A stretch of 64,000 nt of DNA from Platanthera guangdongensis (taxonomy: Eukaryota > Streptophyta > Magnoliopsida > Asparagales > Orchidaceae), in the NCBI GenBank assembly GCA_039583875.1, contig CM077150.1, forward strand, positions 178,254,375 through 178,318,374, in the 5' to 3' direction. A program made the position numbers and the translations under genes. A model generated the notes under the pieces. That model worked only from the letters and a program-made list of their open reading frames with translations, did not search any database and was not told the origin of the DNA. Positions 9,094 through 64,000 of this stretch are shown here, piece by piece. Position 1 is the first letter of the stretch. Every line of letters starts with the position of its first letter.

Positions 9094-9140
<47 letters not shown>

Positions 9141-13143: not shown

Positions 13144-13466
13144 GTATCCACAACGTACCTAATTTGAAGAAGCCCCTGAACAAGCTAAGGTAAATAGGCA
13201 ATGTTTTTGACAAAATATTTCAAGTTGTGCTTGCAGTTATTCCACGCTAAGTGCACACCAATGTCAGGGTGCAGTAGGTCAATATACACGGGTCTGCACG
13301 ACGTAATCCCTCGTTGATCAGATCAGTGTGTTGGCCTACATGTACTCTCTCTATTGGAGTGCACTTACTTTCAAGTATAGGGCTGTGTTTATGCAAGAGC
13401 AGACAAGGAGCAAGGATGAGTCAAAGAGCAGCTCAGAGGCGTAAGACGAAAAATCATCTAAGTAAG

Positions 13467-13653
13467 AATCGACGAGAATCACCAAGTGATTCTCGCCGAT
13501 TCGGCGAGAATCACTAGTGATTCTCGCCGAATCATCGAGAATCACTGGCTGATTCTCGCCGGCTAAATCTGAGTGCAATCAAGTCAAATTCGACGAGAAT
13601 CACTTTGTGATTCTCGACGAATCGTCGAGAATCACTTTGTGATTCTCGCCGAT
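13467..13653 (+). repeat. Motif array in E3 5' LTR (GATTCTCGNCGA)
   Basis: GTGATTCTCGCCGA and its complement TCGACGAGAATCAC alternate about eight times, forming nested palindromes. The array lies about 120 bp upstream of the LTR TATA box. Confidence 0.9.
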
Positions 13654-14473
13654 TTTTACTTGGGCAATTTTCGGGAAAAAGCTGGACCGGATTCTGCCGC
13701 TGGCACTATTTTGAACCGGATTTAGGGTTCTTCTTGTGGGACCCACAACGGTCATTAAGGTGTTTAATTGTGTATATATATACGGGTATTTTTGAACAGT
13801 AAAAATATATAGAAAGAAGCCAAGCGACGATCTTGACCAAAAATCGCGAAACTGCTCCGCCGCTGCCGTCGCCGCTCGCGCTAGTTGGTCGCCGCTTTTG
13901 ATCGAGATTCTTCCTGATCTTCCGGCGACAGAAGCTTAGCCAAGCTTAGAGTCTCACGTGTCTAACCAGAGATCTCTTGTCTCTTGATTTGTTGATCGGG
14001 AAAATCTTCCCCATCTGAATCGATCGAGACGATTGATCCTAGTGTGACCGTTGGTAGACCTAGCTAGCTTCGCTACGAAGTTTGGATCTCCAGAGTACAG
14101 CAGCCGCACATCGTTGTCGCCGCCGATCCCGTGAACCTAGCCGCCGCCCATCTTGCCGCCGCCGGTTCCGGGGAGATTCTCTCCAAGAGAGATCTAGGGT
14201 TGTGGACTCTTCGTGGACTTCAAGAACTCGTCGTCAACGAAGAGGGACACCTTAGTCTCCAAAAGTAGTTTGTATTTCTTGTACATTCTAGTTTTATTTT
14301 TGTTGTAAAGGAACGTTGGTTCCTAGCTGTAAGGGTCGGGTGCAACCCGTGTTGTGGGAGTGTTGACTCCTATGTGTGGAAGGGTTCCTTCCGATAGTGC
14401 AAGGATTGGATTTCAATCCTATTGGTGAAGTGACCGAGTCGTCCCTTGTTGGGAGATAGGTCGAAGGGGGAAA

Positions 14474-20418: not shown

Positions 20419-21983
20419 TGTTGGGTATTGTATCCACAACGTACCTGATTTGAAGAAGCCCATGAACAAGCTAAGGTAAATAGGCAATGTTTTTGACAAA
20501 ATATTTCAAGTTGTGCTTGCAGTTATTCCACGCTAAGTGCACACCAATGTCAGGGTGCAGTAGGTCAATATACACGGGTCTGCACGACGTAATCCCTCGT
20601 TGAGCAGATTAGTGTGTTGGCCTACGTGTACTTTGTCTATTGGAGTGCACTTACTTTCAAGTACAGGGCTGTGTTTATGCAAGAGCAGACAAGGAGCAAG
20701 GATGAGTCAAAGAGCAGCTCAGAGGCGTAAGACGAAAAATCATCTAAGTAAGAATCAACGAGAATCACCAAGTGATTCTCGCCGATTCGACGAGAATCAC
20801 TAGTGATTCTCGCCGAATCGTCGAGAATCACTGGCTGATTCTCGCCGGCTAAATCTGAGTGCAATCAAGTCAAATTCGACGAGAATCACTTTTTGATTCT
20901 CGACGAATCGTCGAGAATCACTTTGTGATTCTCGCCGAATCGTCGAGAATCACCCTTGATTCTCGACGATTCGACGTGAATCACAGGTGATTCTCGCCGA
21001 TTTTTACTTGGGCAATTTTCGGGAAAAAGCTGGACCGGATTCTGCCGCCGGCACTATTTTGAACCAGATTTAGGGTTCTTCTTGTGGGACCCACAACGGT
21101 CATTAAGGTGTTTACTTGTGTATATATATACGGGTATTTTTGAACAGTAAAAATACATAGAAAGAAGCCGAGCGACGATCTTGACCAAAAATCGCGAAAC
21201 TACTCCGCCGTCGCCGTCGCCGCTCGCGCTAGTTGGTCGCCGCTTTTGATCGAGATTCTTCCTGATCTTCCGGCGACAGAAGCTTAGCCAAGCTTAGAGT
21301 CTCACGTGTCTAACCGGAGATCTCTTGTCTCTTGATTTGTTGATCGGGAAAATCTTCCCCATCCGAATCGATCGAGACGATTGATCCTAGTGTGACCGTT
21401 GGTAGACCTAGCTAGCTTCGCTACGAAGTTTGGATCTCCAGAGTACAGCAGCTGCACATCGTTGTCGCCGCCGATCCCGTGAACCTAGCCGCCGCCCATC
21501 TTGCCGCCGCCGGTTCCGGGGAGATTCTCTCCAAGAGAGATCTAGGGTTGTGGACTCTTCGTGGACTTCAAGAACTCGTCGTCAACGAAGAGGGACACCT
21601 TAGTCTCCAAAAGTAGTTTGTATTTCTTGTACATTCTAGTTTTATTTTTGTTGTAAAGGAACGTTGGTTCCTAGCTGTAAGGGTTGGGTGCAACCCGTGT
21701 TGTAGGAGTGTTGACTCCTACGTGCGGAAGGGTTCCTTCCGATAGTGCAAGGATTGGATTTCAATCCTGTTGGTGAAGTGACCGAGTCGTCCCTTGTTGG
21801 GAGATAGGTCGAAGGGGGAAAGTGGATGTACCCAAATCGGGGAACCACTATAAATAGCTTGTGTACTCCGTTTGCTGTGCTGTGTTATTTTCGTGTGCAG
21901 GTACAAATTTAATTCCGCAAAAACACTGCACGTCACCTATCCCCCCCCATAGGTGAAGCTTGTTGACACTAGGTGGACTTTCA
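20419..21983 (+). repeat. E3 3' LTR (1565 bp)
   Basis: It starts TGTTGGGTATTG and ends GGACTTTCA, collinear with the 5' LTR apart from S2 and about 70 extra bases in the motif array. The TATA-like run is at 21120-21131. Confidence 0.93.
20754..21004 (+). repeat. Motif array in E3 3' LTR
   Basis: Same GATTCTCGNCGA palindromic units as in the 5' LTR but with about two more units (near 20935-21000), so the array length differs between the two LTRs of one element. Confidence 0.9.
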
Positions 21984-23529
21984 TCTTTCTTTTAGGATCC
22001 TCTGCTTCTCTCTGAGTCATCTTGATGTATTCAGCACCCAGAATCTTTACTGATGTAGCTCTAGGTACTATAGCATCTGGATGCAAATTCATCTAAGTAT
22101 CAACATTGAAAAGATTGTTTACCTGATATTTGTCTAATTCCTTCTTCCTATATGATGACATGGTAGAAAATTGAGAGGAATCTTTTCCTTCTTCCTTGGC
22201 ATTCCTTATCTGAGAGAGAGCAATAAACTCATTAAACCTAGCCATTCTAGAATTAAGATCCAATTCTGGATCATATATTTGAGAGGGAGGTCTTTCTGGA
22301 CTTGATTTTTCTTTCTAAATTTCTTCAGATGTCTGCTACTGACTACTTTGCTTCTTATGTTGTTGTTTACTGCCCTGGGAGCTGTGTTGCTGTCTGCTGC
22401 TGCTATAAGATGGTCTGGTAGAATGAGAAGATGTAGACCTTTGTACTTGAGAAATGATTCCTGCTGATCCTGCTGTAGGAGGAGGAGGACCTCTCCTAAA
22501 TTGTGGTGGTGGAGAGTGTCTCATAGTCTTCTTCCTTTCTTTCATCTCATTCTTTTAATATCTCATCCAGTGAGGAGTATCTGGAATGAGAGTAATGTTG
22601 TTCATAATATAGTAGGGTGTATCAGCAGTAGGACAGGGTTTAGGAGTAGCCCTGGGTGGAACCTTCTTCTTGAGTTTTCTCTTTTTAGAACTGGAATCTT
22701 CTGAGTCATTGAAAGATGGGGGTTAGATCTGATTACTCTAGAGGGGGTGAATATAGTATATTAAAACTTTTGGCTGTTTAAGATTTTTATCAGAGTAAAG
22801 ATGATACCAGTAGTAGTAATAGATAAAAAGAAAATGATCTAAACTAAACTACCACATCACAGCAATCTAAACTATCATAGCACAACTAGCCTATCACAGC
22901 CATAGCAAGAACAATAAGAAAAGGGCAACCAAACAACACAAGAAATTTTATAGTGGTTCCCCAACCCAGGTACATCCACTCTTCTACCACCCTAGTAGGA
23001 ATCCACTAGCAAGTTTTGATCAGGTGACTGTCACCTTTGAGCTTTTGATCAGGTGCCCAAAAACCAAATAAACTTTTCAAGGGAGTTAATAAACCCTTTA
23101 TACATGAAGGGGGAGAGAGATTGATGGTTCCTTCTCTTTCTCAAACAACTGAGAAGACAAGTGGATTGCATTTATTAAGAGCTCCTCTCAATATCACTTG
23201 GAGCCTTGTACAGGGTGTAGGTCTTCAGCCTTGATTTGAAGTGATCCAGGAACTTCTGACTGATTTGAATATGTTGTCCTTGAAAGCTCCTGGAATGGAA
23301 GTTAAAGAAGACTCTTGATTATGGTGATTGTTCTTCTTCTTCTTATGTAAGATCAAGGAAAAACAAAGTGTTTTCTACGCAGAGAAGAAACAGATGATCT
23401 TGAGTATGTTTCTGTAAATCTTCTCTATGTATTGTTCTGTCGTATATCCTCTTCTGAAATGAAAATCTCTTTTATATATCTCTGTCAAATTCTCCTTTGA
23501 ATTTTGAAGTTCATTACATTGAATGCTGA

Positions 23530-25523
23530 TGTAAGATATGGTACCTAAACACCTAGAGGGGGGGGGGGTGAATAGGTGACCAAAACCTTTTTAAAACTTT
23601 GTTGGCAGCACAACAGTTTATAACACAGATTTCTGAATAAGTTCACACAGCAAACACAACAATTCACAACACAGCACAATCACAGCACAGAATACACAAG
23701 ACTTTATAGTGGTTCCCCAATCTTTGGGTACATCCACTTTCCCCCTTCGCCTATCTAGCAGTGTACTAGATTCGGCCAAACTTCTCCACTAACTCAGAAC
23801 CCAACTAGGTTCCTACCTCAGGCCCAAAGCCTTACACTCAGCCAAAAGGCCTACACTCAGCCACCCAGGCCTACACTCAGCCAATTAAGGCCTACACTCA
23901 GAGTTCTTTAACTCCTACACTCAGGCAAGCAAGCCCTACCCTCAGCCTTTATAATATAGGCTTACAATTCTCTCAGATCCAATGGATCCTACAAGTTAAA
24001 ATAGAAATTACACAAGCTAACTCAACAACTCAGAAAATAAGAGAGGAGTTGAGAGTTTCTTGAAGAGTTCTTGGAAGAACTCAGTTAGATCCAAACTGAC
24101 TTAGCTTCCTTCAAAGCTTCTTGATTAGAACTGAATTAGTCTGAATCTTCTGCAGTTGTTCCTTGACCTCTGCTTCTTGAAATTCAGATGACTCTGAATT
24201 CTTCTTCTCAGCCTTAGTTCCAAAGACTGAATACTTGGTTGGAGCTCTCTCTCTCCAACTTCTTAGATCTGCCGATGCACAGCAAGATCTTCTTGTGTTG
24301 ATACTCAATATACCACTTTTACAAAGATCTGAACTCTCTCTATCAAAAACTTTTTCAACCACTTCTATATTACTTCTTCAATCTTTTCAACAACAGTTTC
24401 TGTAAACTATGGATGCCTATTTATAGGCTTCCTTCATGGTAACCGGCTGGTCCGGTTCATAACAGACTTCTGATATCTCTGACAGTTGATGTAGACCGGC
24501 TGGATCGGCAGCTGTCTTGTCAACCAGTCACTTCTTGAAATTCCTCTAACTGTCAGATAGTGTCGAGACTTTCTGTTCTTAAGTGTCGACACTTATAGGC
24601 CAAGTGTCGACACATGTTGTGTAAGTGTCGACACAAGTCTACAAGGTGTCGACACAATTCCTTGTATGTCTCGACACAGATTCTTCTGCATGTGTCGACA
24701 CTGAAATTGAGTGTCGACACAAGTACTTGTACTTCATTCTTTAACTGTATTCTTCTAAGTGTCGACACATGTTCTTTGTGTCGACACATCTTCATGTGTT
24801 GAAACTGTCAAGTGTCGACACTGCTTCTTGGTGTCGACACAAGTCTTCACTTTTGATTCTTCAGCTGAGTGTCGACACATTCCTTTAGTGTCGACACTTG
24901 TACTTAGAATATTTTGTAACTTTTTTGTTCTTTGCTAAGTGTCGACACAGCTCCTTGTGTCGACACTTTCTTCAAGTGTAGAGTCTTCAACTAAGTGTCG
25001 ACACATTGTGCTGAGTGTCGACACTTTCTTCAACTACTGACTCTTCAGCATAGTGTCGACACATTGTGCTGAGTGTCGACACTTTCTTCAAATACTGAGT
25101 CTTTAGCTAAGTGTCGACACATTGTGCTGGGTGTCGACACTTTCTTTAAGTGTTGACTCTTCTGCATAGTGTCGACACATTGTGTTGAGTGTCGACACTT
25201 GTCCTTAGATTCTGCAGACTTTTGCTGAGTGTCGACACAACTCCAAGTGTCGACACTTTCTGGTGTTGACTCAGCTCTTCTAGGTGTCAACACAATGACT
25301 CCAAGTATCGACACTGCTTGTCTGGGTGTCGACACAAGCTTTCTCAAGTGTCGACACTTTCCCTCTGGGTGTCGACACATGGACTTAAAAACTTTTAGCT
25401 TCAGTCTAGTGAATACCTAACCTGCACAAGTAACTCAAACAAACATCAAATACATTATGATGCATATCATTGAGTTAGGTGAGGCTTCTTCAAATCAGGT
25501 ACATTTGACCAATGTACCCAACA
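23530..25523 (-). repeat. E4 3' LTR (1994 bp)
   Basis: Minus-strand start TGTTGGGTACATTGG (25523), end CCATATCTTACA (23530). The order is motif array (25378-24560), TATA box CCTATAAATAGGC (about 24428-24416), the conserved GTGGATGTACCC block (23737-23703) and the CACCTA/C-run/TAGGTG hairpin (23578-23550). A CCTACACTCAGCC unit is repeated several times at about 23820-23930. Confidence 0.95.
24560..25378. repeat. GTGTCGACAC palindrome array in E4 3' LTR
   Basis: I count about 27 exact copies of the 10-bp perfect palindrome GTGTCGACAC in about 820 bp, plus variants such as GTCTCGACAC, GTGTCAACAC and GTATCGACAC. Spacing is mostly 10-40 bp and irregular. The array ends about 130 bp upstream of the LTR TATA box. 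Confidence 0.97.
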
Positions 25524-25537
25524 ATCTCCCCCTATTT
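25524..25537 (-). other. E4 polypurine tract
   Basis: Reverse complement AAATAGGGGGAGAT directly precedes the 3' LTR, identical in core to that of E3. Confidence 0.9.
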
Positions 25538-25825
25538 GGAGAAGTCATAACCCTTAGTCAATGATATACACCACTCATAATTAAAAATTATAAAATGATG
25601 TAAAACAGGTATATGTCAACAGAGTTAAACTTAAACATGTAATAAAGCACACATGTATACTCATTTAGCATTACAGAACAAACAAGAATTAGACACATTC
25701 ATCTGAACAATCATGAAATTTATATTTATCAAAAATTGTTCATACATTGTTGTTAATACATTTACAATGATTTACACAAAATGTTTGATGTAACAGATTA
25801 CAACATTCTTCAGTTTAATCTTAGT

Positions 25826-26017
25826 CTAATTCTTCTCTGGTTCTTTTATGACTATGCCTTTTCCAGCTTGCACTTTGGCCTTTACACCAGCAGCAGCAGC
25901 AGGCTCAGCTTCAGCAGTCTTCTTCCCTTTGGAGTCCTTCTTTTTCTGTTCTTCAGCCTTGATTTTTTGCCTCTCAAAGTAATGATAGGGCTTAGGAAAG
26001 TACTTGCTAGGCTCCAT
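25826..26017 (-). pseudogene. Possible frameshifted C-terminal tail of E4 accessory gene
   Basis: Overlapping the end of the 871-aa frame by 11 bases, another frame of about 60 codons (MEPSKYFPKPYHYFERQKIK, then Lys/Glu/Ala-rich, ending KEPEKN) has the charged, lysine-rich character of the C-terminal tails of the E2 and E5 accessory genes. It may be the original C-terminus lost by a frameshift, or reached by ribosomal frameshifting. The remaining 25538-25825 shows no coding signal. Confidence 0.45.
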
Positions 26018-28622
26018 AGCTGTTGGAGGTAGCTAACTTAGCCTTCCTTCTATGTTGGACAATGGCTTCCTGCCTACTTTCATGCTTCCTCCATTCTGTC
26101 TCTGAGAACCACTTGTTCCTCTCATGGGCATTGTCCTTGGCCGCTTTCCAGGCTGTGAGAATGATGTTCCTAGAAGTAGGGCTCCACTGTTCAAAATCAG
26201 GTTTTTGCTCAGCAAGTTCCCTGAACTTCTTCTTTGATAGCCTAGTCTCTTCCTCTTTGTCCAAAGCCTCTTGCATAGCAGCTGTAATAGGTTGAACAAC
26301 CTTTTCCAGAATAACATTAGGCTTACCAGCAGTTGGACTATACATTGTGCTTACATCAGCATGAACCATTTCAAAATCTGGAGGTCGATAGATCACCTGA
26401 GCTACTTCCTGTTGCTCACCTCCAAGATATGCACTTTGAATACCAGATTCAGCTACATTATCATCATCACACAGGGGAGGATAGCCCAGTGTAGCCCTGA
26501 TGGAATTGGATATCCATTTTGCATGCTCAGAACTGGCCTTGACTAACACCCTCTCCCCCTTTATGACTTCTTGTGCTACATGATCTCTCACATCATCTTT
26601 CTGGAATCTGATTTGGCTATCCAAATACCTTATTCCATCCTTAAAGAAAGGTCTAAGCTTTGTAAGCTGTTCAGAAATGACCTTCTGTGAATCTTTGATT
26701 GCATTCTTGACAGCAGCAATTTCTTCCTGAAATATCTTATCAAATTCAGCCTTGGCAGCAGCAGAGGAGGTTGATGGTTCATTAGACTTACTCTTCAGTT
26801 CAGTGACTATTGCATTGTGAGATGCAGTCAAATTATCATTCATCCTCAATTGATTCTCCAGCACATAGCCTTGCTTTAGTGCTATATCTTCTACCTTCTC
26901 TTTTATGGTTTCTTGATGTTTAGCCAGGAATACTACTGCATTGCCACCCTTGTGGAAGCAGTCAGTCACTTCCTTCTTATTCAAATTCATTTCAAACCTT
27001 ATTGATTTGATATCTTGAGCTAAATCAAATTGTAGGGACTTTTGGCTTTCATCAATATATGTCTCTATTGCCCTTCTTTGCTCATCCAGCTTTACTTGCA
27101 TTGCTACCATTAGGCTACTATAATCAGTTGATGGAGCTTGTTGGACTAGTGAGTGTTGAGCTACAGTTTGTAGAGCTTTCTTATAGCTCTGACTCCTTCT
27201 TTTGAAGACAAAGAATTTCTTCTTTTGAGCTTGCTCAGCTTCATCATCCTCAGACTCTGATGTACTGGCTATATCTACCCTATCCTTAGGGCTTGAGGGT
27301 TTTTCAGTTTGCACATCTTGTGCCTTCTCAGTATCTAGCCTTATAGGCTCTTCTTGAACATCCAAGTTCTCCCCCTCAATAGCAGCATCCTTCTCTTCAT
27401 CAGCAGCATTCTTATCCATATCAAAATCATCTTGATCTAAATTCAGAAATAGATCTTCCATTGTGTATTCAGCTGGAGACTGTGCAGGAGAAGTACTGGT
27501 TTTATCAACTACTTTATCAGGAACTTGTGGCACAACAGCAGATGTGTCCTGAAGAACAACATCTGGTTCTTGAGTTGCTTGCTGATTTTGCTGATGGACA
27601 TCAGACAAATCAGAATCCATTACAGAAAAATCTAATGTATTAAGGTCAGAAAGTACCTCTTGGATAATCTGTGTAGCCTGCTCACTTTCCAGTGTAGAGG
27701 GATGTTCTACAGCTGGAGGCTCCCCCTGGATGTCAGCTGGCTCCTGAGGAGCAGGTGACTTCTCTGCAGCCTCATCCTCATAATTATCAGGAGTGAAAAC
27801 AACATGTTCTTCACTGCCTGAGCTGCTGGAGGACTCCTGAGTCACAGCAGCTATCTTCCTCTTCTTCCTAGGAGGAGAGTCCTTCTTAGAAACTGGCTTC
27901 TCTGGAGTAGGAACTTCCTTAGACAGTACCCTTTCCCACCTGGAGAAGATTCTCATGTCCATCCTTCTCATGTGGTTGATTTTAGTTCCAGCAGCAGTGC
28001 TCATTACCTCTGGAATTGATCCAGCCAGGTAGAGACTTAGTATCCTGCCCAGATTGGGCTTCTTCAGACTTTCCTTCACTTTCTCAAAGACAATCATAGA
28101 CCAATCTGTTTTGATGTTGAAGATGATTCTGGTCATAATACTGAACATAGAGGCTGACACCCTGTCATGTCCTCCTGGTTTGCTTAGTATAACTTTGCCT
28201 ACAACTTCAGACAGAAATTTTCCTTGACTGTTCATGCCTTTTCTGTTAAAGACTGAACCTTTTTTCATCTTTGAATCAAGACCACACCAAATCAAAGCTT
28301 CCCTGGTCTTGGATGTAGAAATTTCTTCTTCTTCTTGAGTCTTAGGTAGCTGAAGTACCTTTCTCAGACTTTTGGGTGATACCTTGACCTTGGTTCCATG
28401 CACTCTGGATTTGATTCTGTATCCAGAGTCGTCTACAGTTGCTCCAGTAAGAAATTCAAGCACTTCTTTCTTCCATATCTTGGTTGGTTCGGAAACCAAG
28501 TATTCCAGTCCTGAATTGCTGACTAGGGTTATCACTGATTTGATGTCATGATCACCGTCGTCGAATGCGCCTCGCACGAGCTCATAGCCTTCGTTAACGT
28601 TCTCTTCCAGCTTGGGAGCCAT
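26007..28622 (-). CDS. E4 accessory protein (871 aa), SIRE-type post-pol gene
   Basis: The single open frame starts at ATGGCTCCC (28622), in good plant start context and about 100 nt downstream of a TATA box. Residues 1 to about 240 form a domain shared with E5, with GKFLSEVVGKVILSK, NLGRILSLYLAGS, TKINHMRRMDMRIFSRWERVL; its layout recalls the putative plant transposon protein domains of other retroelement ORFs. Then come basic and acidic disordered regions (about 240-500), a KKKFFVFKRRSQSYKKAL basic patch, a long coiled coil (about 520-720) and a conserved-looking C-terminal helix-rich part. I see no signal peptide or membrane helix, so an envelope role is not supported. Function unknown; a DNA- or chromatin-associated role is an inference. 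Confidence 0.8.
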   Translation of the reverse strand: MAPKLEENVNEGYELVRGAFDDGDHDIKSVITLVSNSGLEYLVSEPTKIWKKEVLEFLTGATVDDSGYRIKSRVHGTKVKVSPKSLRKVLQLPKTQEEEEISTSKTREALIWCGLDSKMKKGSVFNRKGMNSQGKFLSEVVGKVILSKPGGHDRVSASMFSIMTRIIFNIKTDWSMIVFEKVKESLKKPNLGRILSLYLAGSIPEVMSTAAGTKINHMRRMDMRIFSRWERVLSKEVPTPEKPVSKKDSPPRKKRKIAAVTQESSSSSGSEEHVVFTPDNYEDEAAEKSPAPQEPADIQGEPPAVEHPSTLESEQATQIIQEVLSDLNTLDFSVMDSDLSDVHQQNQQATQEPDVVLQDTSAVVPQVPDKVVDKTSTSPAQSPAEYTMEDLFLNLDQDDFDMDKNAADEEKDAAIEGENLDVQEEPIRLDTEKAQDVQTEKPSSPKDRVDIASTSESEDDEAEQAQKKKFFVFKRRSQSYKKALQTVAQHSLVQQAPSTDYSSLMVAMQVKLDEQRRAIETYIDESQKSLQFDLAQDIKSIRFEMNLNKKEVTDCFHKGGNAVVFLAKHQETIKEKVEDIALKQGYVLENQLRMNDNLTASHNAIVTELKSKSNEPSTSSAAAKAEFDKIFQEEIAAVKNAIKDSQKVISEQLTKLRPFFKDGIRYLDSQIRFQKDDVRDHVAQEVIKGERVLVKASSEHAKWISNSIRATLGYPPLCDDDNVAESGIQSAYLGGEQQEVAQVIYRPPDFEMVHADVSTMYSPTAGKPNVILEKVVQPITAAMQEALDKEEETRLSKKKFRELAEQKPDFEQWSPTSRNIILTAWKAAKDNAHERNKWFSETEWRKHESRQEAIVQHRRKAKLATSNSYGA

Positions 28623-28735
28623 TAGGGTTTGGAGAAGTAGTCTTTAGAGAAGAGAAATGTCGACACAAGAGTTTTGGTCTCGAAACTTTGAAAGCGTGTC
28701 GACAAACAAAGACAGAACCCTATTTATACCTTTCT
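28619..28735 (-). promoter_or_regulatory. Internal promoter and leader of E4 accessory gene
   Basis: GGTATAAATAGGG (28730-28718) is a good plant TATA box about 100 nt before the ATG. The leader is CT-rich, contains AAACCCTA next to the start and ends CCCTAATGGCT, close to the plant start consensus. Two copies of the GTCGAC motif lie in the leader and more lie upstream. Confidence 0.65.
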
Positions 28736-29104
28736 TGTTTGAAGACGAACAGGCGGGATGAATTTCTAAAGATGTGTCGACACTGTCAATAAGTGTCGAC
28801 ACAGACTTATAATGTCTCGACACACATGTGTCGACATAAGTTTAGTCAACAGATTTTATGTGTCGACACTTGGTTAAGTGTCGACACCACACTACTCGAC
28901 ATGTAGTCGAGACTTTACTTAGAAAATTCTGAGTAAAACTTAAGTGTCGACACCTTATTGAATGTGTCGACACCAACTTGACATGTGTCGACACTAACAT
29001 TCTGAAGTGTCGACACCAACTTCCTAGATGTGTCGACACTATTTTCCTGAAGTGTCGACACTTACTATTCTGTGTCGACATAGACTTGTCTATGTGTCGA
29101 CACC
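28658..29104. repeat. GTGTCGACAC array between E4 pol and accessory gene
   Basis: About 12 to 14 copies or near-copies of the LTR palindrome fill the gap between the pol stop (29137) and the accessory gene promoter. The flanking sequences differ from the LTR array, so this is a second, independent array of the same motif and not an LTR fragment. Confidence 0.93.
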
Positions 29105-29136
29105 TTTTTACTTAGCCAATTTTTAGTTCTGTAAAC

Positions 29137-32100
29137 TTAGTCTAAGTTTATCATTCCTAGTTCAATTTTGAATCTATTGAACTTAGCTTCTTCTAAGGGC
29201 TTAGTGAACATATCAGCTATCTGATTATCAGTTCTAACATATTCAAGTGCAATATCATTTCTTTCTACATGCTCTCTAAGAAAGTGATATTTGATCTCAA
29301 TATGTTTAGTTCTACTATGTGATACAGGATTGTTAGCTATTGAAATAGCACTAGTAGAATCACAGTAAAGTGGAGTTCTACTTACCTGAACTCCATAGTC
29401 TTCTAACTGATGTTGAATCCACAGAAGTTGAGCACAGCAACTTCCTGCAGCTACATATTCTGACTCAGCTGTGGAAATAGCCACACTGGTTTGCTTCTTA
29501 CTGCTCCATGAAATGAGTCTTCCACCTAGGAATTGACAGGATCCAGTAGTGCTCTTTCTATCTTCTTTGCATCCTGCAAAGTCTGCATCTGAATAGCCTG
29601 TTAGATCAAAATCTCCATTCCTAGGGTACCAGAGGCCTAGATAAGGAGTGCCCTTTAGATATCTCAAGATTCTCTTGACTGCAGTCAAGTGAGACTCTTT
29701 AGGGCAAGCTTGATACCTGGCACAAACACATGTAGCATACATAATGTCAGGCCTACTTGCAGTCAAGTATAGTAGGGAGCCAACTATCCCTCTATACAAG
29801 GTTTCATCTACAGGTTTCCCTGCATCATCCTTGCTTAGAGACATACTTGACCCCATAGGAGTCTTCATGGTACTGGATGAATCCATACCATACTTCCTTA
29901 TGAGTTCTAGGGTGAACTTGGACTGACATATGGATAGACCACTTCCAGTCTGTTTAACTTGGAGACCCAAGAAAAACTTCAGTTCTCCCATACTACTCAT
30001 CTCAAATTGACTTTGCATAAGCTTTGCAAACTTTTTGCAAAGGCTACTTTCAGTAGACCCAAATATAATGTCATCTACATATATTTGGACAAGTATTACT
30101 TTGCCTCTAGATTCCCTAAGGAATAGAGTCTTATCTATTTTCCCCCTTGAGAACTTGTTCTCAATGAGGAAACTAGATAGGGTTTCATACCAAGCTCTAG
30201 GTGCTTGTTTTAACCCATATAATGCTTTCCTAAGTCTATAGACATAATGAGGTAGAGTTGAATCAACAAAACCTGCAGGCTGCTCCACATAGACTTCTTC
30301 TTTCAAATTACCATTTAGGAATGCTGACTTGACATCCATTTGGTATACTTTGAATCCCTGATAGGTTGCATAGGCCAAGAACATCCTTATGGCTTCCAGT
30401 CTGGCTACTGGAGCAAAGGTTTGATCAAAATCAATACCTTCTTCTTGCCTATATCCTTTTGCAACCAGTCTTGCCTTATTCTTAATGATGACACCTTGTT
30501 CATCTAACTTGTTCCTGTAGATCCACTTTGTTCCTATAACATTGTGGTCTTTAGGCTTTGGAACCAGCTCCCAAACCTTGCACCTTTTGAACTGATTAAG
30601 TTCTTCTTGCATAGCTTCTGTCCACTGTGGATCTTGTATAGCTTCTTCAAATTTCTTTGGTTCTATTTGAGACAGAAAACTTGAATATACTTCAGCATTC
30701 TGATTTCTGCTCCTTGTCTGAACACCTTGTCTTGGATCTCCAATAATCAGCTCTATTGGATGATCTCTTAGATGCCTGTTGGCTGGAGGCATCCTTACTT
30801 CTGGTTGTACTTCTACAGCATCTTCATCATGCTGAGTTCCTTGTACTTCTTCAGCTCCTGGTACATGTAGTTCTCCCCCTGGACATAAGCTATCTTCTTC
30901 TACTTGCTGTCTTGCAGCAGGTACATCTTCTATGGCTAGCTTGTCCATCTTCTTAGTAAGACCTGTGGGGCTGCATACATTGCTAGACAACTCATTGTTA
31001 ATTAGTTGTGTCTCATCAAAAACTACATGCACAGACTCCTCTACAACTTGTGTAGTCAAGTTGTAGACTCTATAAGCCTTACTATTATTGCTGTACCCAA
31101 CAAATACTCCCTCTTGGGACTTGGCAGCAAACTTAGTTAGGTAAGACTTTCCATTGTTAAGTATGAAGCATTTACAACCAAAGATCCTAAAATAGGATAG
31201 GTTTGGTTTCCTGCCTTTCACAACTTCATAGGGGGTCTTGTTTAACCTTTTAGTGATGGTAGCCCTATTTATCACATGGCATGCAGTGTTAACTGCTTCA
31301 GCCCAGAAATATTCTGGCAGTGATGAATCACTTAATAGGGTTCTACCAGCCTCTATCAAGGTCCTATTTTTCCTTTCAGCAATGCCATTTTGCTGAGGTG
31401 TTCTAGGTGAAGAGAATTCTTGAAATATCCCATAGTCTTCACACAGCTTTGTCATGCTTTCAGACTGAAACTCTGTACCATGGTCACTTCTAATTTTGAC
31501 CACTGTACAGTTCAATTCATTCTGAATTTGCTTAACAAAACTATAGAAGACACTAGGTGTCTCAGATTTCTGCTTTAAGAAGAACACCCAGGAAAACCTT
31601 GAGTAGTCATCAACCACTACAAAGGTGTAGACCTTCCTACCTAAGCTGTGAACTGGCATTGGACCAAATAGATCCATATGCAAGAGGTATAGACACCTCA
31701 CAGCATCTTTGTTGTCTAAGCTTCTAAAGGTGGATTTAGTCTGCTTGCCCTTTTGACAAGCTGAGCAAATGCCATCTTTGACACACTTAACTTGAGGACC
31801 ATTCCTCACTAACTCTTTACTAAAGAGTTTGCCAATAGTCTTGTAATTAAGATGAGCAAGCCTCTTGTGCCATTTGACACATTGAGAGACTGTCTCATCA
31901 GCTACAAGACAAACTGGAGAACTATTGTTCTCAACCATAAGGTCTAAACAATAGACATTTCTCTTTCTATATCCTGTCAAAATGATCTCTTGATCACTTG
32001 ACCTCTTGATATGACAACCATTTTTAACAAATGAGATGTCATACCCTACATCACTTAACTGACTTATACTAATGAGGTTGTGTTTCAACCCTTTAACATA

Positions 32101-32304
32101 AGCCACTTGAGTAATGGTAACAAGGTTTGAAGAGATGTTACCAAACCCTTTGATGATTCCTTTTTCAGAACCACCAAAGGTCACTTTAGGACCATTTTTG
32201 ATTGGAATGTAGTCCTTCAGTAGTCCCCTTGTTCCAGTCATGTGTCTGGAACATCCACTATCCAAGTACCATGTTGGGGTATGGCCACTTGGATTTACCT
32301 GCAA
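29137..32304 (-). CDS. E4 pol polyprotein (protease, integrase, RT, RNase H), 1055 aa
   Basis: Domains in Copia order: aspartic protease [13 protein letters not shown] (about residue 12); GAG-pre-integrase finger [13 protein letters not shown] and [11 protein letters not shown] (about 140-195); integrase core with [16 protein letters not shown] and [12 protein letters not shown] (about 205-330), catalytic D, D, E all present; RT with [41 protein letters not shown] and [10 protein letters not shown] (about 585-800); RNase H with [45 protein letters not shown] (about 890-1040). No stop or shift. It begins at TTG in the same frame as gag, one stop codon after it, so expression needs readthrough or splicing. 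Confidence 0.95.
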
Positions 32305-32313
32305 AACAAATTA
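32297..32313 (-). promoter_or_regulatory. E4 gag-pol junction: single TAA then TTTGTTTTGCAG
   Basis: Gag ends at TAA (32313-32311) and pol continues in the same frame. The intervening TTTGTTTTGCAG resembles a 3' splice site. Either stop-codon readthrough or a spliced message could give Pol; the sequence alone does not decide. Confidence 0.6.
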
Positions 32314-34362
32314 CTGAACCTTAGAACCCAAAGTAAACTTGGGTCCTTGGTGATTGTTAGTTTGTAATTTGACATAGCTACCTGCTGGCTTTCCAACAGG
32401 TAACTTGCTACCCAACTTGGCACTGGCATTGTGCCAACAATCCAAGGCAAAGTGGCCAACCTTGCCACAGCACCAGCATTCAAACTTGTTGTACCTTTGC
32501 TTAGATACAACCTTTGCTGTCTTGACTACAGCAGGCTTGTTGAATGTTGGGGCTTTACCCTTGGACTTGAACTTGGACTTGAACTTGGACTGTACAGTCC
32601 CTGCAGGTCTAACAAAACCTAGTCCAGCTTTGCCTTTTTGATGAACAAATTCATCAATTAATGGTAATACTGATTTAGGTTTTGAAAACCTGGCAGCAAG
32701 TTCTTTTTCCTTCTGGAGATTGATCTCCAGTCTCTTAATTTGATCATTCTTAAATGTAATAGTACCCATCTGAATCACAGTAATGTGTTTCAGCCTGGCT
32801 ACTTCATTCAGTTTTTGATCATACTGCTTCTCAAAATCTGTTGCAGCTGTCTTGAGATCAGCAATCTCCTTTGCCTGACTTTTGGCTAGGATCTTGCTTT
32901 TCTTATAGGCTTGCAACAGTACTTGGTATTCATCTAAGAGCTGATGAATATCTCCCTCAGATTCAGAAACACTTCCATCACTTGATGAAGATGAATCTGA
33001 CTCTGAACTAGAACTGAAATCTGAACTTTGAGTTGGACTTTGTACCTGACTAGGTCCTGGCTGCTCCAGGATTTTGGTACTTTCAGTCAATGCCATCAGT
33101 CCTTGGCACTGACACTCTTCTTGTTCATAGATTGATTCCATGATCTGCATAAACTCTTCTTCTTCTTCAGCAAATAGCCCTATATAGGCTTCAGCATCTG
33201 TCTCAGTGTCTGAAGAAGAAATGTCTGAAAGAGTCTTCTCATTCTTTGCAACAAAGGACTTCTCCTTCTTTCCTTTGAAGTGAGTCTTCTTTTTGTCACT
33301 GGATTCTTTCCTTCTTTCAGGACAATCAGCAATAACATGACCCTGTCTATTGCAGCAGTAACACACAATCTTAGACCCAGTTGCCTTACTAGTCTTTGTC
33401 TTTTTCTTATCCTTCTTTGAAGGCTTCTTCTCCTGATACTGGACTTCTTTCCCTTTGGAATATGAAGGTCTGGACCTCCACTGTTTCTTCTTAAGGAATT
33501 TCTGAAAATGTCTGGTGAATGCAGCAAAATCTTCATCACTTTCACTGCTTGTAGACTTTGTGCTCACAGACTCATCTGATTCTGATTCAACTACCTCTGG
33601 AGGAGGAGTTGATGACTTAGTCCTGTTCTTTCTAGGTACTTCTGACTTAAAGGCAACAGTCCTTTCCCTGTGTTCAGTCCTTGTTGACTTTTCCTCTTCT
33701 TTTCTTACTGACAATTGCATCTCATAAGATAACAACTTGCCAAACAGTGTGGGAGGAGGAATTTCTCCCAACTTTGCCATTTCTCTGATGGCACAGATCT
33801 TAGTGTCCCAATCTTTGGTTAGGGACCTTAAGAACTTATCATTTAATTCATAGTTAGTGAACTCTCTTCCATAGGACATGAGTTCATTAACAATTCTATA
33901 AAACTTCTTGTAGCATTCAGTGATGCTATCTCCTCTTCCTTGCCTAAAGCTCTCATATTCTTGATTAAGCAAGGACTTCCTATCTTGTCTTACTTCTTCA
34001 GAACCTTCCATGTAGACAATGAGGGTATCCCACATTTCTTTTGCTGTTTTACAGTGAATAAGGTTCTGGAAGGTGGCATCATCAATTGCACTAACTATGA
34101 TATTCTGTGCCCTTTTGTCCATTGTAGCTAGGACAATCTCATCCTTGGTCATCTCAGAAAAATCCTTAGGAGTCCTCTGATTTGCATCCAATACTGAGAT
34201 CTTCATGGGCACATAGGGCCCTTCTTTGACTGTGATGTAGATCCTAGGGTCAGAGGCCTCCATGAACAGCCTTACCCTTTCTTTCCAGATTCCAAAAATC
34301 TCCTTTCTGCATATGGGCAGTTTCATTGAACCCAATTCCTTGTGATTCTCTGAAGACCCCAT
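32311..34362 (-). CDS. E4 Gag, 683 aa
   Basis: The frame starts MGSSENHKELGSMKLPI shortly after the primer site. The capsid-like domain (about residues 20-235) has FGIWKERVRLFMEASDP, AQNIIVSAIDDATF, RKSLLNQEYESFRQG and LNDKFLRSLTKDWDTK. Two CCHC knuckles are seen: CYCCNRQGHVIADC (about 345) and CWCCGKVGHFALDC (about 640). Between them lie a basic stretch, a strongly acidic Ser-rich region and a coiled coil. It ends GPKFTLGSKVQ, the same kind of ending as in E3 and E5. Gag should assemble the cytoplasmic particle and package RNA. The frame is uninterrupted. Confidence 0.93.
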   Translation of the reverse strand: MGSSENHKELGSMKLPICRKEIFGIWKERVRLFMEASDPRIYITVKEGPYVPMKISVLDANQRTPKDFSEMTKDEIVLATMDKRAQNIIVSAIDDATFQNLIHCKTAKEMWDTLIVYMEGSEEVRQDRKSLLNQEYESFRQGRGDSITECYKKFYRIVNELMSYGREFTNYELNDKFLRSLTKDWDTKICAIREMAKLGEIPPPTLFGKLLSYEMQLSVRKEEEKSTRTEHRERTVAFKSEVPRKNRTKSSTPPPEVVESESDESVSTKSTSSESDEDFAAFTRHFQKFLKKKQWRSRPSYSKGKEVQYQEKKPSKKDKKKTKTSKATGSKIVCYCCNRQGHVIADCPERRKESSDKKKTHFKGKKEKSFVAKNEKTLSDISSSDTETDAEAYIGLFAEEEEEFMQIMESIYEQEECQCQGLMALTESTKILEQPGPSQVQSPTQSSDFSSSSESDSSSSSDGSVSESEGDIHQLLDEYQVLLQAYKKSKILAKSQAKEIADLKTAATDFEKQYDQKLNEVARLKHITVIQMGTITFKNDQIKRLEINLQKEKELAARFSKPKSVLPLIDEFVHQKGKAGLGFVRPAGTVQSKFKSKFKSKGKAPTFNKPAVVKTAKVVSKQRYNKFECWCCGKVGHFALDCWHNASAKLGSKLPVGKPAGSYVKLQTNNHQGPKFTLGSKVQ

Positions 34363-34450
34363 ATTTCTTGAGTTTCTTGAAACTGTTTCCTGACTTATAT
34401 TGAATCTGCCAACCTGGATCTCCTCAGACAGTTAGTCCTTTTTGAGGAAT

Positions 34451-34465
34451 CTGGCTCTGATACCA
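34451..34465 (-). other. E4 primer binding site (initiator tRNA-Met)
   Basis: Reverse complement TGGTATCAGAGCCAG lies two bases inside the 5' LTR boundary, the standard Copia primer site. Confidence 0.93.
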
Positions 34466-34467
34466 CT

Positions 34468-36460
34468 TGTAAGATATGGTACCTAAACACCTAGAGGGGG
34501 GGGTGAATAGGTGACCAAAACCTTTTTAAAACTTTGTTGGCAGCACAACAGTTTATAACACAGATTTCTGAATAAGTTCACACAGCAAACACAGCAATTC
34601 ACAACACAGCACAATCACAGCACAGAATACACAAGACTTTATAGTGGTTCCCCAATCTTTGGGTACATCCACTTTCCCCCTTCGCCTATCTAGCAGTGTA
34701 CTAGATTCGGCCAAACTTCTCCACTAACTCAGAACCCAACTAGGTTCCTACCTCAGGCCCAAAGCCTTACACTCAGCCAAAAGGCCTACACTCAGCCACC
34801 CAGGCCTACACTCAGCCAAATAAGGCCTACACTCAGAGTTCTTTAACTCCTACACTCAGGCAAGCAAGCCCTACCCTCAGCCTTTATAATATAGGCTTAC
34901 AATTCTCTCAGATCCAATGGATCCTACAAGTTAAAATAGAAATTACACAAGCTAACTCAACAACTCAGAAAATAAGAGAGGAGTTGAGAGTTTCTTGAAG
35001 AGTTCTTGGAAGAACTCAGTTAGATCCAAACTGACTTAGCTTCCTTCAAAGCTTCTTGATTAGAACTGAATTAGTCTGAATCTTCTGCAGTTGTTCCTTG
35101 ACCTCTGCTTCTTGAAATTCAGATGACTCTGAATTCTTCTTCTCAGCCTTAGTTCCAAAGACTGAATACTTGGTTGGAGCTCTCTCTCTCTCCAACTTCT
35201 TAGATCTGCCGATGCACAGTAAGATCTTCTTGTGTTGATACTCAATATACCACTTTTACAAAGATCTGAACTCTCTCTATCAAAAACTTTTTCAACCACT
35301 TCTATATTACTTCTTCAATCTTTTCAACAACAGTTTCTGTAAACTATGGATGCCTATTTATAGGCTTCCTTCATGGTAACCGGCTGGTCCGGTTCATAAC
35401 AGACTTCTGATATCTCTGACAGTTGATGTAGACCGGCTGGATCGGCAGCTGTCTTGTCAACCAGTCACTTCTTGAAATTCCTCTAACTGTCAGATAGTGT
35501 CGAGACTTTCTGTTCTTAAGTGTCGACACTTATATGCCAAGTGTCGACACATGTTGTGTAAGTGTCGACACAAGTCTACAAGGTGTCGACACAATTCCTT
35601 GTATGTCTCGACACAGATTCTTCTGCATGTGTCGACACTGAAATTGAGTGTCGACACAAGTACTTGTACTTCATTCTTTAACTGTATTCTTCTAAGTGTC
35701 GATACATGTTCTTTGTGTCGACACATCTTCATGTGTTGAAACTGTCAAGTGTCGACACTGCTTCTTGGTGTCGACACAAGTCTTCACTTTTGATTCTTCA
35801 GCTGAGTGTCGACACATTCCTTTAGTGTCGACACTTGTACTTAGAATATTTTGTAACTTTTCTGTTCTTTGCTAAGTGTCGACACAGCTCCTTGTGTCGA
35901 CACTTTCTTCAAGTGTAGAGTCTTCAACTAAGTGTCGACACATTGTGCTGAGTGTCGACACTTTCTTCAACTACTGACTCTTCAGCATAGTGTCGACACA
36001 TTGTGCTGAGTGTCGACACTTTCTTCAAATACTGAGTCTTTAGCTAAGTGTCGACACATTGTGCTGGGTGTCGACACTTTCTTTAAGTGTTGACTCTTCT
36101 GCATAGTGTCGACACATTGTGTTGAGTGTCGACACTTGTCCTTAGATTCTGCAGACTTTTGCTGAGTGTCGACACAACTCCAAGTGTCGACACTTTCTGG
36201 TGTTGACTCAGCTCTTCTAGGTGTCAACACAATGACTCCAAGTGTCGACACTGCTTGTCTGGGTGTCGACACAAGCTTTCTCAAGTGTCGACACTTTCCC
36301 TCTGGGTGTCGACACATGGACTTAGAAACTTTTAGCTTCAGTCTAGTGAATACCTAACCTGCACAAGTAACTCAAACAAACATCAAATACATTATGATGC
36401 ATATCATTGAGTTAGGTGAGGCTTCTTCAAATCAGGTACATTTGACCAATGTACCCAATA
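34468..36460 (-). repeat. E4 5' LTR (1993 bp)
   Basis: Collinear with the 3' LTR. TATA box GCCTATAAATAGGC is at 35365-35352. The hairpin blocks are at 34513-34488 and 34672-34638. The outermost dinucleotide is mutated (TA in place of TG). Confidence 0.95.
35497..36315. repeat. GTGTCGACAC palindrome array in E4 5' LTR
   Basis: Same array as at 24560-25378 with about the same number of copies. Single-base differences between the two arrays fall partly inside the palindrome (GTGTCGATAC, GTATCGACAC). Confidence 0.97.
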
Positions 36461-36710
36461 GCTGATTGCCTGGAGAATGAAATTCGACTGCAGAATATTT
36501 GCATTGATGAGTTTCCTCAACTGTCACAATTAATTAAGCAAGTAATTAACCTGATGAAGACCATAATTAATGCTGCCAAATAACGGCTATATTCAGATAA
36601 TATATGCATTAATTACTCTGGAAATTATTGCTAAATAATATAAGGAATATGGATAGGAAATAAGAAAAACTCTAAGTCAGGATCTGCACAAAAATCGTCA
36701 GCTATAAATT

Positions 36711-37031
36711 AGATTTCGTCGACTTGAGATCCAAGTTCGTCGAGTTGAGAAATCCTGTTCGTCGACCTGAGAAAACTTGTTCGTCGACCTGAGAACCAAG
36801 TTCGTCAACCTGAGCTCAGCTAACTGCATTCTGTGAATAACTTGCCAATCTTATAGTCCAATTTCGTCGAGCATAGATTCTATCTTCGTCGAGCTGAGTT
36901 CAGAGACAATATTTTGTGTTGAAGTTGAAATCCAGACTTCGTCGACCTGAGCTCGAATATCGTCGAGCTCAACTCAGAGAATTAACTCTGAGTTCGTCGA
37001 GCGGAGCATGACTATCGTCGAGCTGAGTTCG
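36711..37031. repeat. TTCGTCGAGCTGAG motif array in E5 LTR
   Basis: About eleven copies of TTCGTCGA followed by CTGAG-like bases occur in about 320 bp, for example at 36718, 36736, 36779, 36887 and 37015. The array lies upstream of the LTR TATA-like site in E5 orientation, as in E2. Confidence 0.92.
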
Positions 37032-57231: not shown

Positions 57232-60026
57232 CCAATTACATTAAGAGAAGTTGCCCTGGGTACCACAGCCTCTGGATGCAGATTCATGTAGGCATCTACA
57301 TTGAAAAATTTATTAGCTTTATCATACCTTTTTAATTCTTCCTTTCTATAGGTTGACATTGTTGAGTATTGAGATGGATCTCTCCCTTCAATTTTAGCTT
57401 TATTGATCATTGATAATCCAACAAGCTCCTGAAATCTAGCCATTATTGAAGTGTTTTCAGTTTCAGGATCCACAAATGGAATAGGTGGAGATTCAGGCCT
57501 TTTTGGGCTTTCAGCTTTTTCTATTTTAGAAGCTTGTTGTTGCTGCTGCTATTGTTGTTGCTGATGTTATTATTGATGTTGTTGTCTGCTGGAATACCTT
57601 TGTTGGATGCTTCCTTGATATTTGGAATATCTACCTTGATGTCTTTGGTAAGTTTGAGCATAGGAGGTAGACCTCGGAGAACTTCTTCCTGAAGCACCAG
57701 CAGCAAGTGGAGGAGGAGGAGGAGGAGGACCTCTCCAGTTCCTTTGAGGGAGAGGAGGAGAGTACCTCCTGCTTTTCTTTCGAGCTTTCTGCTCATTCTT
57801 TGAAAGCCACATCCATGCTTGCATCCCAGGATATGGAGTGATCTTCTGTAAGATATAATATGGTGTATCATGAATAGGGTTTGGTTTGGGAGCAGTAATG
57901 GGAATAGATTTTCTCTTCTTAGAGACTTTCTTCTTGGCAGTAGAGCTATCATCATCATCAGAATCAGCATCCTCATCTTCATCAGAAGATCCCTTAGGAT
58001 TATCATATAGATCATCAAGAGCTTTTAGAAGATCTTTTGATATTTGCTTTTTATCCTGGGGCTGCACTGGAGGCTCTGGAAGATTAACTATTTCAGCAGC
58101 GTTTTCAAAAACTAACAAGTTTTCTTCTTCTATATCTGTCATAATGATTTTATCTAAATCAGGGAGGGGACTGTCATCCATCTTGTAAGTGGGAGCTGAG
58201 ACAGCCTCTGGAGAAGAAATATCCTTGGGAGCTGATACTATTGGAATCTTTGTAATTGCAAAACTAGCCTTAAGTTGCTTAGTAACTGTGTAGCTTATTG
58301 GAGTAGTGTATGGAACTAAAGCCAAAGAATGCTGATAAGAAGAACTAGGTAGAGTATCTTTGTAGACAAAACTGAATAAATCTAGTAAAGAATTCAGATT
58401 AACTGTGAGATTTATAATATAATCACCAACAATATTATGTTCTGACAAAATTGTGTCATCCATATCTATATCAGAATTAACTAGATCAATTATTTCAGCT
58501 GGAATAGCAGTTTCTTCTAAATCATCAGACATCACAGAATCTTCTGTACTTCTGCTGCTGCTGTTACAACTGGAGCTTCTTCAACACAGAGCATCTCCCC
58601 CTGACTGGTTGCAGGGGGCCCTGAAGACAGTCCTCTAGAAGAAGGGACATGGGACAAAGCAGCAATTCTGAATGAAAGGGTAGTGATGGAAGTAGAAAGG
58701 GAAGCTATAGCATCAGTTATGAGCTTATTAAGTGTGGGAGAAATAAATGCTAGAAGGTCTTTAGCAATATCAGAAAAATTGAGATAGAGGGATTCTGGAG
58801 CAGTGGAGTATGGAGTGTGATGTCCATAATTTCAGCATACATAGAATAGACTGGAAGGATCTGTATGTGTGGAGTCTAGAGCAGTGAATGGTATGTCAGT
58901 GTGGGGAACTGAAGGACTAGCAGTTGAAGGAGTTGTAGTGGTAGAAGGTTGGACTGTGGGTATAGGGGAAGAGATGGGTTCCTGATGTGGAGATGGTGGA
59001 GGAAACAGTCGATTGAAGGTGTGGGATGACATAAATGTGTCAGGGTGTATGTCATTTAAATGAGGTGGAAGTGGAGATTGAGGTGGAGTGATGTGCTCAG
59101 GAGATGGAACTGGGGTTGATGCTGGTGTGGGTTGATGTTGTTGCTGAGTTGGTGGAGTATGAACTGGAGAAAGAGATGGTTGTTGTTGTTATTGTTATTG
59201 TTGAGGTTAAGAGAAGGAATGCTGGTGGAGGGGAGGACATCTTCTGGAGGTGGAGGAGTGGCTAGCACAACCCTGGTGCTCTCAGAAGTCCTTGTAGAGG
59301 ATGAAGCCTTGGATAGCTTATTTATTTTCCTCTCCCATCTACCAAACAGGGCATATGTAAGCCTTTTGGAGGCATTTATGAACACTGTCGTGGAGACCAG
59401 ATGTTCAGGAGCCTTTTCTTGAAGGACGATTCCCAGAATCCGTCCAAAGCACACTTCCTTCTTATTATTTTCTTCTTAATTAAATCAAATAGCAGTTTGC
59501 CCCAGTTTACTGCTATCTTCTCAACCATAGCACCCATCACCAAGAACTGGTGCCTGGCGTTATAGTCGTGGGCGGTGTGTTTGCCCAGCAGCACTTTGCC
59601 AACTACATCGGCTAAGAACTTGTATTTAGACGATAGGTTCTTCTTCAGCAGTTTGTTCGGGTTTTCGCCAGAGTGGCCCATCTTGATAAGCATATTCTCA
59701 TACTCATCACTGTCCATCTCTATTTCTTCATTTCTATTTAATAGACCGAAAACTTCGGTTAGTATAGCGCGGGAAAGGGAAACTTGATTACCAGATATTG
59801 TTCCCGTCAGTGTATCTTCCTCTGATGTTGTAGATGTAAAGACCCATTCCTTAATCTCAGTCATTACTATCTTTATTCGTTGAGTCATGAACTTCTTCAG
59901 ATTTTGCTCTTCAAACAGTTTCAGAATTTCCACAAAAAGCTGGTCGGAATGTTGGAAGGATTCGAAGTTGATATCAAATCCCATGTCAAATTTCATCACA
60001 GCAAGGATGTTCGTCGGAATCTCCAT
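57232..60026 (-). pseudogene. E5 accessory gene, N-terminal and central parts
   Basis: Start ATG at 60026 (AACAATGGAG context). The N-terminal domain (MEIPTNILAVMKF, YKFLADVVGKVLLGKHTAHD) continues after a frameshift near 59420 with CFGRILGIVLQEKAP, TTVFINASKRLTYALFGRWERKINKL, matching E4 residues up to about 240. Then follow Gln/Asn/His- and Pro-rich low-complexity sequence, an acidic central part (58535-57570) with APKPNPIHDTPYYIL and RGPPPPPPP, and STMSTYRKEELKRY, MNLHPEAVVPRATS before E6. At least four shifts or stops occur. It is a homologue of the E2 and E4 genes; function unknown. Confidence 0.78.
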
Positions 60027-60142: not shown

Positions 60143-60408
60143 TCCGACGAAATAAATAAAATTCTTCGATCTTAGTTCGACGAAATATTTTATAGACAAA
60201 AGAGTTCGTCGATCTCAGTCAAAAGAAGTGAAAACATTACGTCGAGCTCAGTTTGACGAAAGTTTTCTGAAGCAATATCGTCGATCTCCGTTCGACGAAT
60301 AAAACTTCACCCATAGAGAGTTTGTCGATCTCCATTTGACGAATTTCTCTAGAACTTTTCATAGTTCATCAATCTCCATTCGACGAACTTTGAAAAATTC
60401 GTCGACCA
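60143..60408. repeat. TTCGTCGA-n7-TCGACGAA array upstream of E5 accessory gene
   Basis: Six or seven imperfect 23-bp palindromes of the form TTCGTCGATCTCNGTTCGACGAA fill the gap between the pol stop (60419) and the accessory promoter. The half-site TTCGTCGA is that of the E5 LTR array. Confidence 0.92.
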
Positions 60409-63603: not shown

Positions 63604-64000
63604 TTAGTCATTCCTAACCCAGGTTACCTTGGGTCCTTCTTTCTTTACATAGTTAAAACTGAAAATAAATGAATATTCAGGTTGGCATTTATAACCTAAA
63701 GGGTGATATTTTTCTAGGTGGTATAATCCATTGATTAAATTGGTTTATGGATGATCTTGGTTGATTATAAGTTTTGAAAGAATTAAATTTTCTGTTAAGT
63801 TGAACTGGGTTTGACGAATTAAAGTGAGTTCGTCGATCTGAGTTCGACGAATGGGGGTGAGTTCGTCGAACTCCACTCAGAGAATGAGAATATCCATTCA
63901 CTGGGTCCCAAAATCGTTGATCTCGGTTCGACGAACCATACTGGTTTCGTCGATCGTAGTTTAACGAATTATTGTAATAGAATTCTGCGTTCGGAGTTCA
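63604..64000 (-). pseudogene. E5 gag C-terminal part with embedded motif array
   Basis: A frame open from the window edge reads Ser/Asn/Arg-rich sequence (NYDRRNQYGSSNRDQRF, HSSNSDRRTHFNSSNP) and ends VRRTH-, SSINQFNQ- type sequence with an early stop near 63689; the gag ending GPKVTWVRND with TAA 63606-63604 is readable just after. DNA of 63800-63990 contains four copies of the TTCGTCGA-n7-TCGACGAA element while staying open. The TAA is followed in frame by TCTATTTTATTGCAGG and pol. The rest of gag is outside the window. Confidence 0.65.

Follow-up and report, generated by a model that had tools for sequence, protein, structure and literature searches.

A predicted VANC21-like domain in the accessory gene of a Sirevirus-type Copia element with matching palindrome arrays at its LTR and internal TATA boxes

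E4, an intact Sirevirus-type Copia retrotransposon in the 64-kb stretch of Platanthera DNA analysed here (the window), carries arrays of the palindrome GTGTCGACAC upstream of the TATA box in both LTRs and again between pol and its accessory gene, upstream of a further TATA box. The N-terminal domain of the accessory protein is predicted to adopt the fold of VANC21, a member of the transposon-encoded VANC proteins. These bind short motifs in the non-coding DNA of their own element, resulting in loss of methylation, according to the accessible parts of PMC5735166 and PMC10398659. We consider it probable that the E4 accessory product is a nuclear DNA-binding protein that acts on the palindromes of its own element and activates both promoters, most likely against methylation.

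E4 is bordered at 23525 and 36461 by the target site duplication GCTGA (read from the sequence), and its two LTRs show 8 differences in 1989 aligned sites (K2P 0.004). Its gag and pol are of the Copia type (Retrotran_gag_2, 2.9e-20; RVT_2, 2e-76), and the open reading frames of gag, pol and the accessory gene are intact. Its features are as follows:

23530..36460, minus strand: E4, intact Sirevirus-type Copia element (LTR pair; ends and target site duplication from sequence)
23530..25523, minus strand: 3′ LTR (99.3% identical to 34468-36458; outer end from sequence)
24418..24425, minus strand: 3′ LTR TATA box TATAAATA (pattern match)
24560..25378, minus strand: 3′ LTR palindrome array, 27 exact copies, 31 at up to one mismatch (motif count)
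25525..25533, minus strand: polypurine tract adjoining the 3′ LTR (read from sequence)
26007..28622, minus strand: accessory gene, 871 aa (open reading frame)
27972..28622, minus strand: accessory N-terminal domain, aa 1-217, predicted VANC21-like fold (structure prediction, PDB comparison)
28657..29103, minus strand: internal array in the pol-accessory gap, 11 exact copies, 16 at up to one mismatch (motif count)
28721..28728, minus strand: internal TATA box TATAAATA (pattern match)
29137..32304, minus strand: pol, integrase and Copia reverse transcriptase (profile match)
32311..34362, minus strand: gag, Copia-type, zinc knuckle just under cutoff (profile match)
34452..34465, minus strand: primer binding site (read from sequence)
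34468..36460, minus strand: 5′ LTR (LTR alignment, blastn)
35355..35362, minus strand: 5′ LTR TATA box TATAAATA (pattern match)
35497..36315, minus strand: 5′ LTR palindrome array, 27 exact copies, 31 at up to one mismatch (motif count)

The primer binding site we take, by complementarity, to be of the initiator-Met tRNA type. Sireviruses typically have several polypurine tract copies in the linker; the element E3 shows several, and in E4 the exact string occurs at the terminal tract and twice within the accessory gene. E4 (23525-36465, within 22000-37232) sits in the 3′ LTR of a further element, E5; inside E5 there is also a repeat pair (37516-39191 and 55548-57226) that is 91% alike. Elsewhere in the window, 8174-9152 is a dense, ACACACAT-rich minisatellite with copies about 77-79% alike.

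The window contains 65 exact copies of GTGTCGACAC, versus 0.03 expected from shuffles: 27 in each E4 LTR, as an earlier note on this DNA had put it, 11 internally (28774-29103) and none elsewhere. Allowing one mismatch, the counts rise to 31 in each LTR and 16 internally, with one match outside E4; the internal array that the note described is thus real, and its number of 12-14 copies falls between the exact and the relaxed count. On the E4 coding strand, the pattern TATA[AT]A[AT][AG] is found only at 24425, 28728 and 35362, once downstream of each array, so that E4 has the palindromic array upstream of the LTR TATA box that is typical of Sireviruses. The internal TATA box, likewise anticipated by the note, is separated from the closest full motif by 45 bp and from the accessory ATG by 106 bp; two of the 16 relaxed internal matches lie downstream of it. 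The note had also held that the internal array is not an LTR fragment, and the comparison bears this out. The 161 bp at 76% identity that blastn aligns between the two are carried by the motifs; with these masked, the best local score is 147, against 120 +/- 14 for shuffled spacers, and is reached in 12 of 300 shuffles, while the unmasked score is reached in 23 of 300 shuffles of the spacers. Because shuffles match these scores that often, the internal array appears to share at most a weak spacer trace with the LTR and is no recognisable fragment of it. A 58-bp tandem duplication makes up part of the LTR array; tandem duplication inflated a weak helical-phase signal in the motif spacing, and this signal was set aside.

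The internal layout recurs in close relatives. A search of the 4.25-Gb genome with the E4 accessory protein gave 138,295 candidates, 52 of which were scored (E4 included); these are 91-100% identical, and 34 contain no stop. Among the 20 lowest-scoring of the 52 (91-94%), for which the upstream 520 bp were compared, all have an array of 8-13 exact copies and TATAAATA, with the nearest exact motif 45 bp from the TATA box in 19, as in E4, and 64 bp in one. From TATA box to accessory gene they measure 105-107 bp, but 238 bp in one copy (L048). Over these 20 sequences and E4, diversity is 0.0096 in the 160 motif columns versus 0.041 in the 358 spacer columns, a gap matched by none of 498 circular shifts of the motif mask, though gene conversion could add to the low motif diversity. 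CpG sites are retained to the same degree within motifs (98% of 16 sites) and outside them (99% of 5). Genome-wide, the motif followed after 30-60 bp by TATAAATAG yields 23,438 matches (reversed control, 0). In all 50 matches viewed, the first places on one contig, the gap is 44-47 bp, and its letters differ strongly from match to match. We take these matches to be internal promoters because the corresponding gap in the E4 LTR is far longer. With more than 23,000 genomic matches in differing neighbouring sequence, the motif-TATA combination seems to mark a clade rather than a single family, and the note's description of the motif as family-specific looks overstated. In a related Platanthera element, gene model P0008 reads SVDT and CVDN right before the accessory start, which would be consistent with the same motif there.

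The structure of the accessory N-terminal domain was predicted with good confidence, and in a comparison with the PDB the single standout chain was VANC21 bound to its target DNA (9lnj); as modelled, the domain has the VANC21 DNA-binding fold. (An AlphaFold run from 5 sequences reached a pLDDT of 39.8 and was discarded.) By sequence, the accessory profile aligned to a VANC21 fragment with hhalign at 16.0, under the best shuffles, and had 0 matches in a PDB sequence search. With hmmscan, DUF1985 was not matched by the E4 or E5 N-termini or by 6 homologs; among the relevant families, both N-termini and 5 of the 6 homologs hit Transposase_32 only, below cutoff, and the remaining homolog (P0012) hit nothing. 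A genome search with Transposase_32 gave 150 strong matches, which are canonical members. Over the whole E4 accessory protein, no 19-residue window exceeds a hydropathy of 1.6 (maximum 1.14), as a transmembrane segment would, and a basic run resembling a nuclear localization signal, RKKRK, lies at residue 252. The VANC proteins, which the note had named as closest precedent, have moved from analogy to a predicted structural relationship: the modelled fold matches DNA-bound VANC21, and motif, TATA box and spacing are kept in relatives; against this stand the missing DUF1985 and a carrier that is not a VANDAL, and because of these two points we do not class the E4 protein as a VANC member. Our literature search found no published fold link between VANC and accessory proteins of Sireviruses or other LTR elements, and no paper on the 9lnj structure. 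As a separate observation, an orchid protein at L001 1189-2052 scores similarly, just below cutoff, for DUF1985 and the Plant mobile domain; Platanthera zijinensis and Phalaenopsis equestris have homologs of it.

Other elements use other motifs. E5, as the note had it, repeats the design with TTCGTCGA in the LTR and upstream of its accessory gene; the restriction of the motif to two promoters, which it had also claimed, holds for E4 but not for E5, where the gag/pol boundary bears a third array. The E5 and E3 features are:

36715..37021, minus strand: E5 LTR array of TTCGTCGA, 8 exact copies, 11 at up to one mismatch, one orientation (motif count)
59379..60026, minus strand: E5 accessory N-terminal domain, 22% identical to that of E4 (profile search, alignment)
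60144..60405, minus strand: E5 internal array before the accessory gene, both orientations (motif count)
63811..63953, minus strand: E5 third array, gag C-terminus/pol boundary (motif count)
13460..13661, plus strand: E3 LTR palindrome array, GATTCTCG type (blastn, motif count)
20746..21009, plus strand: E3 second LTR, palindrome array (blastn, motif count)

At up to one mismatch, the two orientations number 11 and 0 in the E5 LTR and 9 and 7 internally, where some copies form inverted pairs 7 bp apart (TTCGTCGA-N7-TCGACGAA). The third E5 array falls within a roughly 100-residue open frame adjoining pol. Further elements (X) were drawn from 20-kb stretches sampled at ten round coordinates, from the regions next to them and from the flanks of the window; two of these elements, X1 and X3, have arrays at the matching gag/pol place (L005 1-700 and L008 3100-4400). 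X1, like E5, carries TTCGTCGA in the LTR, at the gag/pol boundary and before the accessory gene. The accessory domain of X3 shares 54-57% identity with those of E5 and X1, and this element has mainly ATCGTCGA in both LTRs and in its internal and gag/pol arrays; summed across every array on either strand, the ratio of ATCGTCGA to TTCGTCGA is 21:3 in X3, 4:27 in E5 and 1:14 in X1, with array limits being approximate. Such a switch in all arrays is what a shared reader would require, in a single case. In X6, whose accessory gene (55-68% identical) has a broken frame, motifs are 95% and spacers 63% identical, and three LTR-array comparisons gave motif/spacer identities of 91/76, 99/86 and 96/67, the motif figure being inflated in each pair by motif-anchored alignment. 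X2 (accessory protein 33% identical to that of E4) has a degenerate TTTCTCG-type internal array; this motif is absent from the stretch of its LTR examined, which a nested element interrupts. At L030 2030-3528, an LTR of another element with GATACTCGNCGAATT-like palindromes is nested in the X2 3′ LTR. A AATGTCGC array in L013, considered as a Sirevirus repeated motif, was rejected, as it seems to belong to an unrelated insert.

Accessory gene and internal array occur together in E4, E5, X1, X3 and X6, and both are absent from E3, an accessory-free Sirevirus. X8 (L028-L029, C9:60000001-60020000, 0.3-9.2 kb) comprises gag, a decayed accessory gene with stops and both LTRs, which also bear GTTGAGTGAAGC-type palindromes; it has no internal array, which the deletion of its pol may have removed. 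Because of the spot sampling and the confounding of pol with accessory relatedness, we claim no co-divergence statistics.

Much of this layout has been known since 2010. In the accessible parts of Bousios et al. (2010, PMC2829016), palindromic repeated motifs are described upstream of the LTR TATA box in 13 Sireviruses and, in the nine that bear an ENV gene, again mainly upstream of ENV; the authors suggested an internal promoter but could not pin it down conclusively. Because such LTR and pre-ENV arrays were already published, the array layout is no novelty; what is new is the E4 motif and its copy number. E4 shares with these elements its element-specific, high-copy palindromes in both places, and their motif-free linker in the absence of ENV resembles that of E3. 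E4 differs in having no CGG-CCG core, which 12 of the 13 published motifs contain, but the core is not required of every Sirevirus, since the Tnd-1 motif also lacks it. Moreover, E4 has 27 LTR copies versus at most 14, its internal array is followed at a near-fixed distance by a TATA box, and E5-type elements add the third array. Like E4, the Arabidopsis VANDAL elements encode a protein with the same predicted DNA-binding fold and have short element-specific motifs clustered in their own non-coding regions, although in E4 their role as targets would be by extension. The E4 carrier is a Copia retrotransposon rather than a VANDAL DNA transposon, it uses a perfect palindrome in place of YAGTATTAY (PMC5735166, PMC10398659), it has no Pfam DUF1985 match, and its anti-silencing role is presumed by analogy. 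The 3′ additional ORF of Athila is likewise an LTR-retrotransposon accessory ORF, with a PF20167-like domain (Transposase_32) and an NLS, but Athila belongs to the Gypsy lineage, and the accessible text of PMC11728184 describes no promoter arrays and brings up VANDAL solely to exemplify transposon ORFs. Maize Grande gene23 has its own promoter and a nuclear protein, as predicted for E4, but is antisense and of another lineage (PMC7264820, in its accessible part).

Taken together, we propose that the internal TATA promoter would make the accessory mRNA, and the LTR promoter the genomic RNA and gag-pol. The accessory protein would bind GTGTCGACAC at both through its VANC21-like N-terminal domain, where a dimer would suit the perfect palindrome, and once bound would maintain or establish the activity of both, most likely by counteracting methylation of the DNA in the manner of VANC proteins. 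The internal array would then create positive feedback, resulting in an anti-silencing switch that reinforces itself and is restricted to the family. The data show the arrays, the internal TATA box with its near-fixed spacing, the conservation of motifs over spacers, the predicted fold match and the shared variant in one sister element; beyond fold and DNA layout, we infer the nuclear location, the binding of GTGTCGACAC and anti-silencing over plain activation or autorepression. That E4 works like VANC is, in our estimate, somewhat better than an even bet. Against it stand the LTR palindromes of E3, which has no accessory gene, and X8, whose decayed gene is without an internal array. In E3 and other accessory-free elements, the role would fall to a host factor or to protein provided in trans; this speaks most strongly for the palindromes being host transcription factor sites (stress or hormone) that drive both promoters, with the accessory protein doing something else. 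Bousios et al. proposed host stress factors for Sirevirus palindromes, and four elements in their paper also have LTR palindromes without the gene (PMC2829016). We nevertheless hold this to be unlikely, though a serious contender: motifs differ by element within one genome (GTGTCGACAC, TTCGTCGA, ATCGTCGA, GATTCTCG), which a single factor would not easily read, and the fold predicted for the accessory domain is that of a transposon protein that binds DNA in a sequence-specific manner.

It is improbable that the arrays act instead as RNA or DNA secondary structure, with hairpins of adjacent palindromes shaping small RNAs or recoding. Maize Sirevirus LTR palindromes do coincide with small RNAs (Bousios 2016, as reported in the accessible part of PMC10760457), E5-type inverted pairs could fold, and one E5 array lies at the gag/pol boundary, but in E4 the array-TATA distance is near-fixed and the motif letters, not pairing alone, are conserved, while hairpins that attract silencing would presumably be selected against. 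Even less probable are arrays that serve no selected function and were left behind by tandem duplication and gene conversion; the 58-bp duplication would fit, and concerted evolution also lowers motif diversity, but the internal spacers are at most weakly related to those of the LTR, motif diversity in the 21 sequences is four-fold below that of spacers, and the TATA gap stays at 44-47 bp in the 50 genomic matches viewed. That the accessory gene encodes an envelope-like protein for cell-to-cell spread, as the Sirevirus literature names it, we hardly credit: its position is that of the ENV gene (PMC2829016, in its accessible part), but the hydropathy maximum stays below threshold, the NLS-like run is present, and the predicted N-terminal fold is that of a DNA-binding protein.

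What the Sirevirus envelope-like gene and the palindrome arrays do was described as an open question in 2010 (PMC2829016, in its accessible part), and our literature search found no later answer; for Tork and Athila, a January 2026 paper states, in its accessible part, that the epigenetic role of LTR-element ORFs remains to be investigated (PMC12844716). The predicted VANC-like domain would give gene and arrays a concrete role that is testable by one EMSA. Whether Sirevirus 'envelope' genes in general are remote structural relatives of VANC, with anti-silencing activity and co-evolving with family-specific palindromes in both promoters, we regard as evenly balanced. If true, element-encoded anti-silencing would reach beyond VANDAL DNA transposons into a class of elements that takes up a large share of plant genomes, and a VANDAL-type strategy would account for part of the success of Sireviruses, which rank among the most abundant plant elements.
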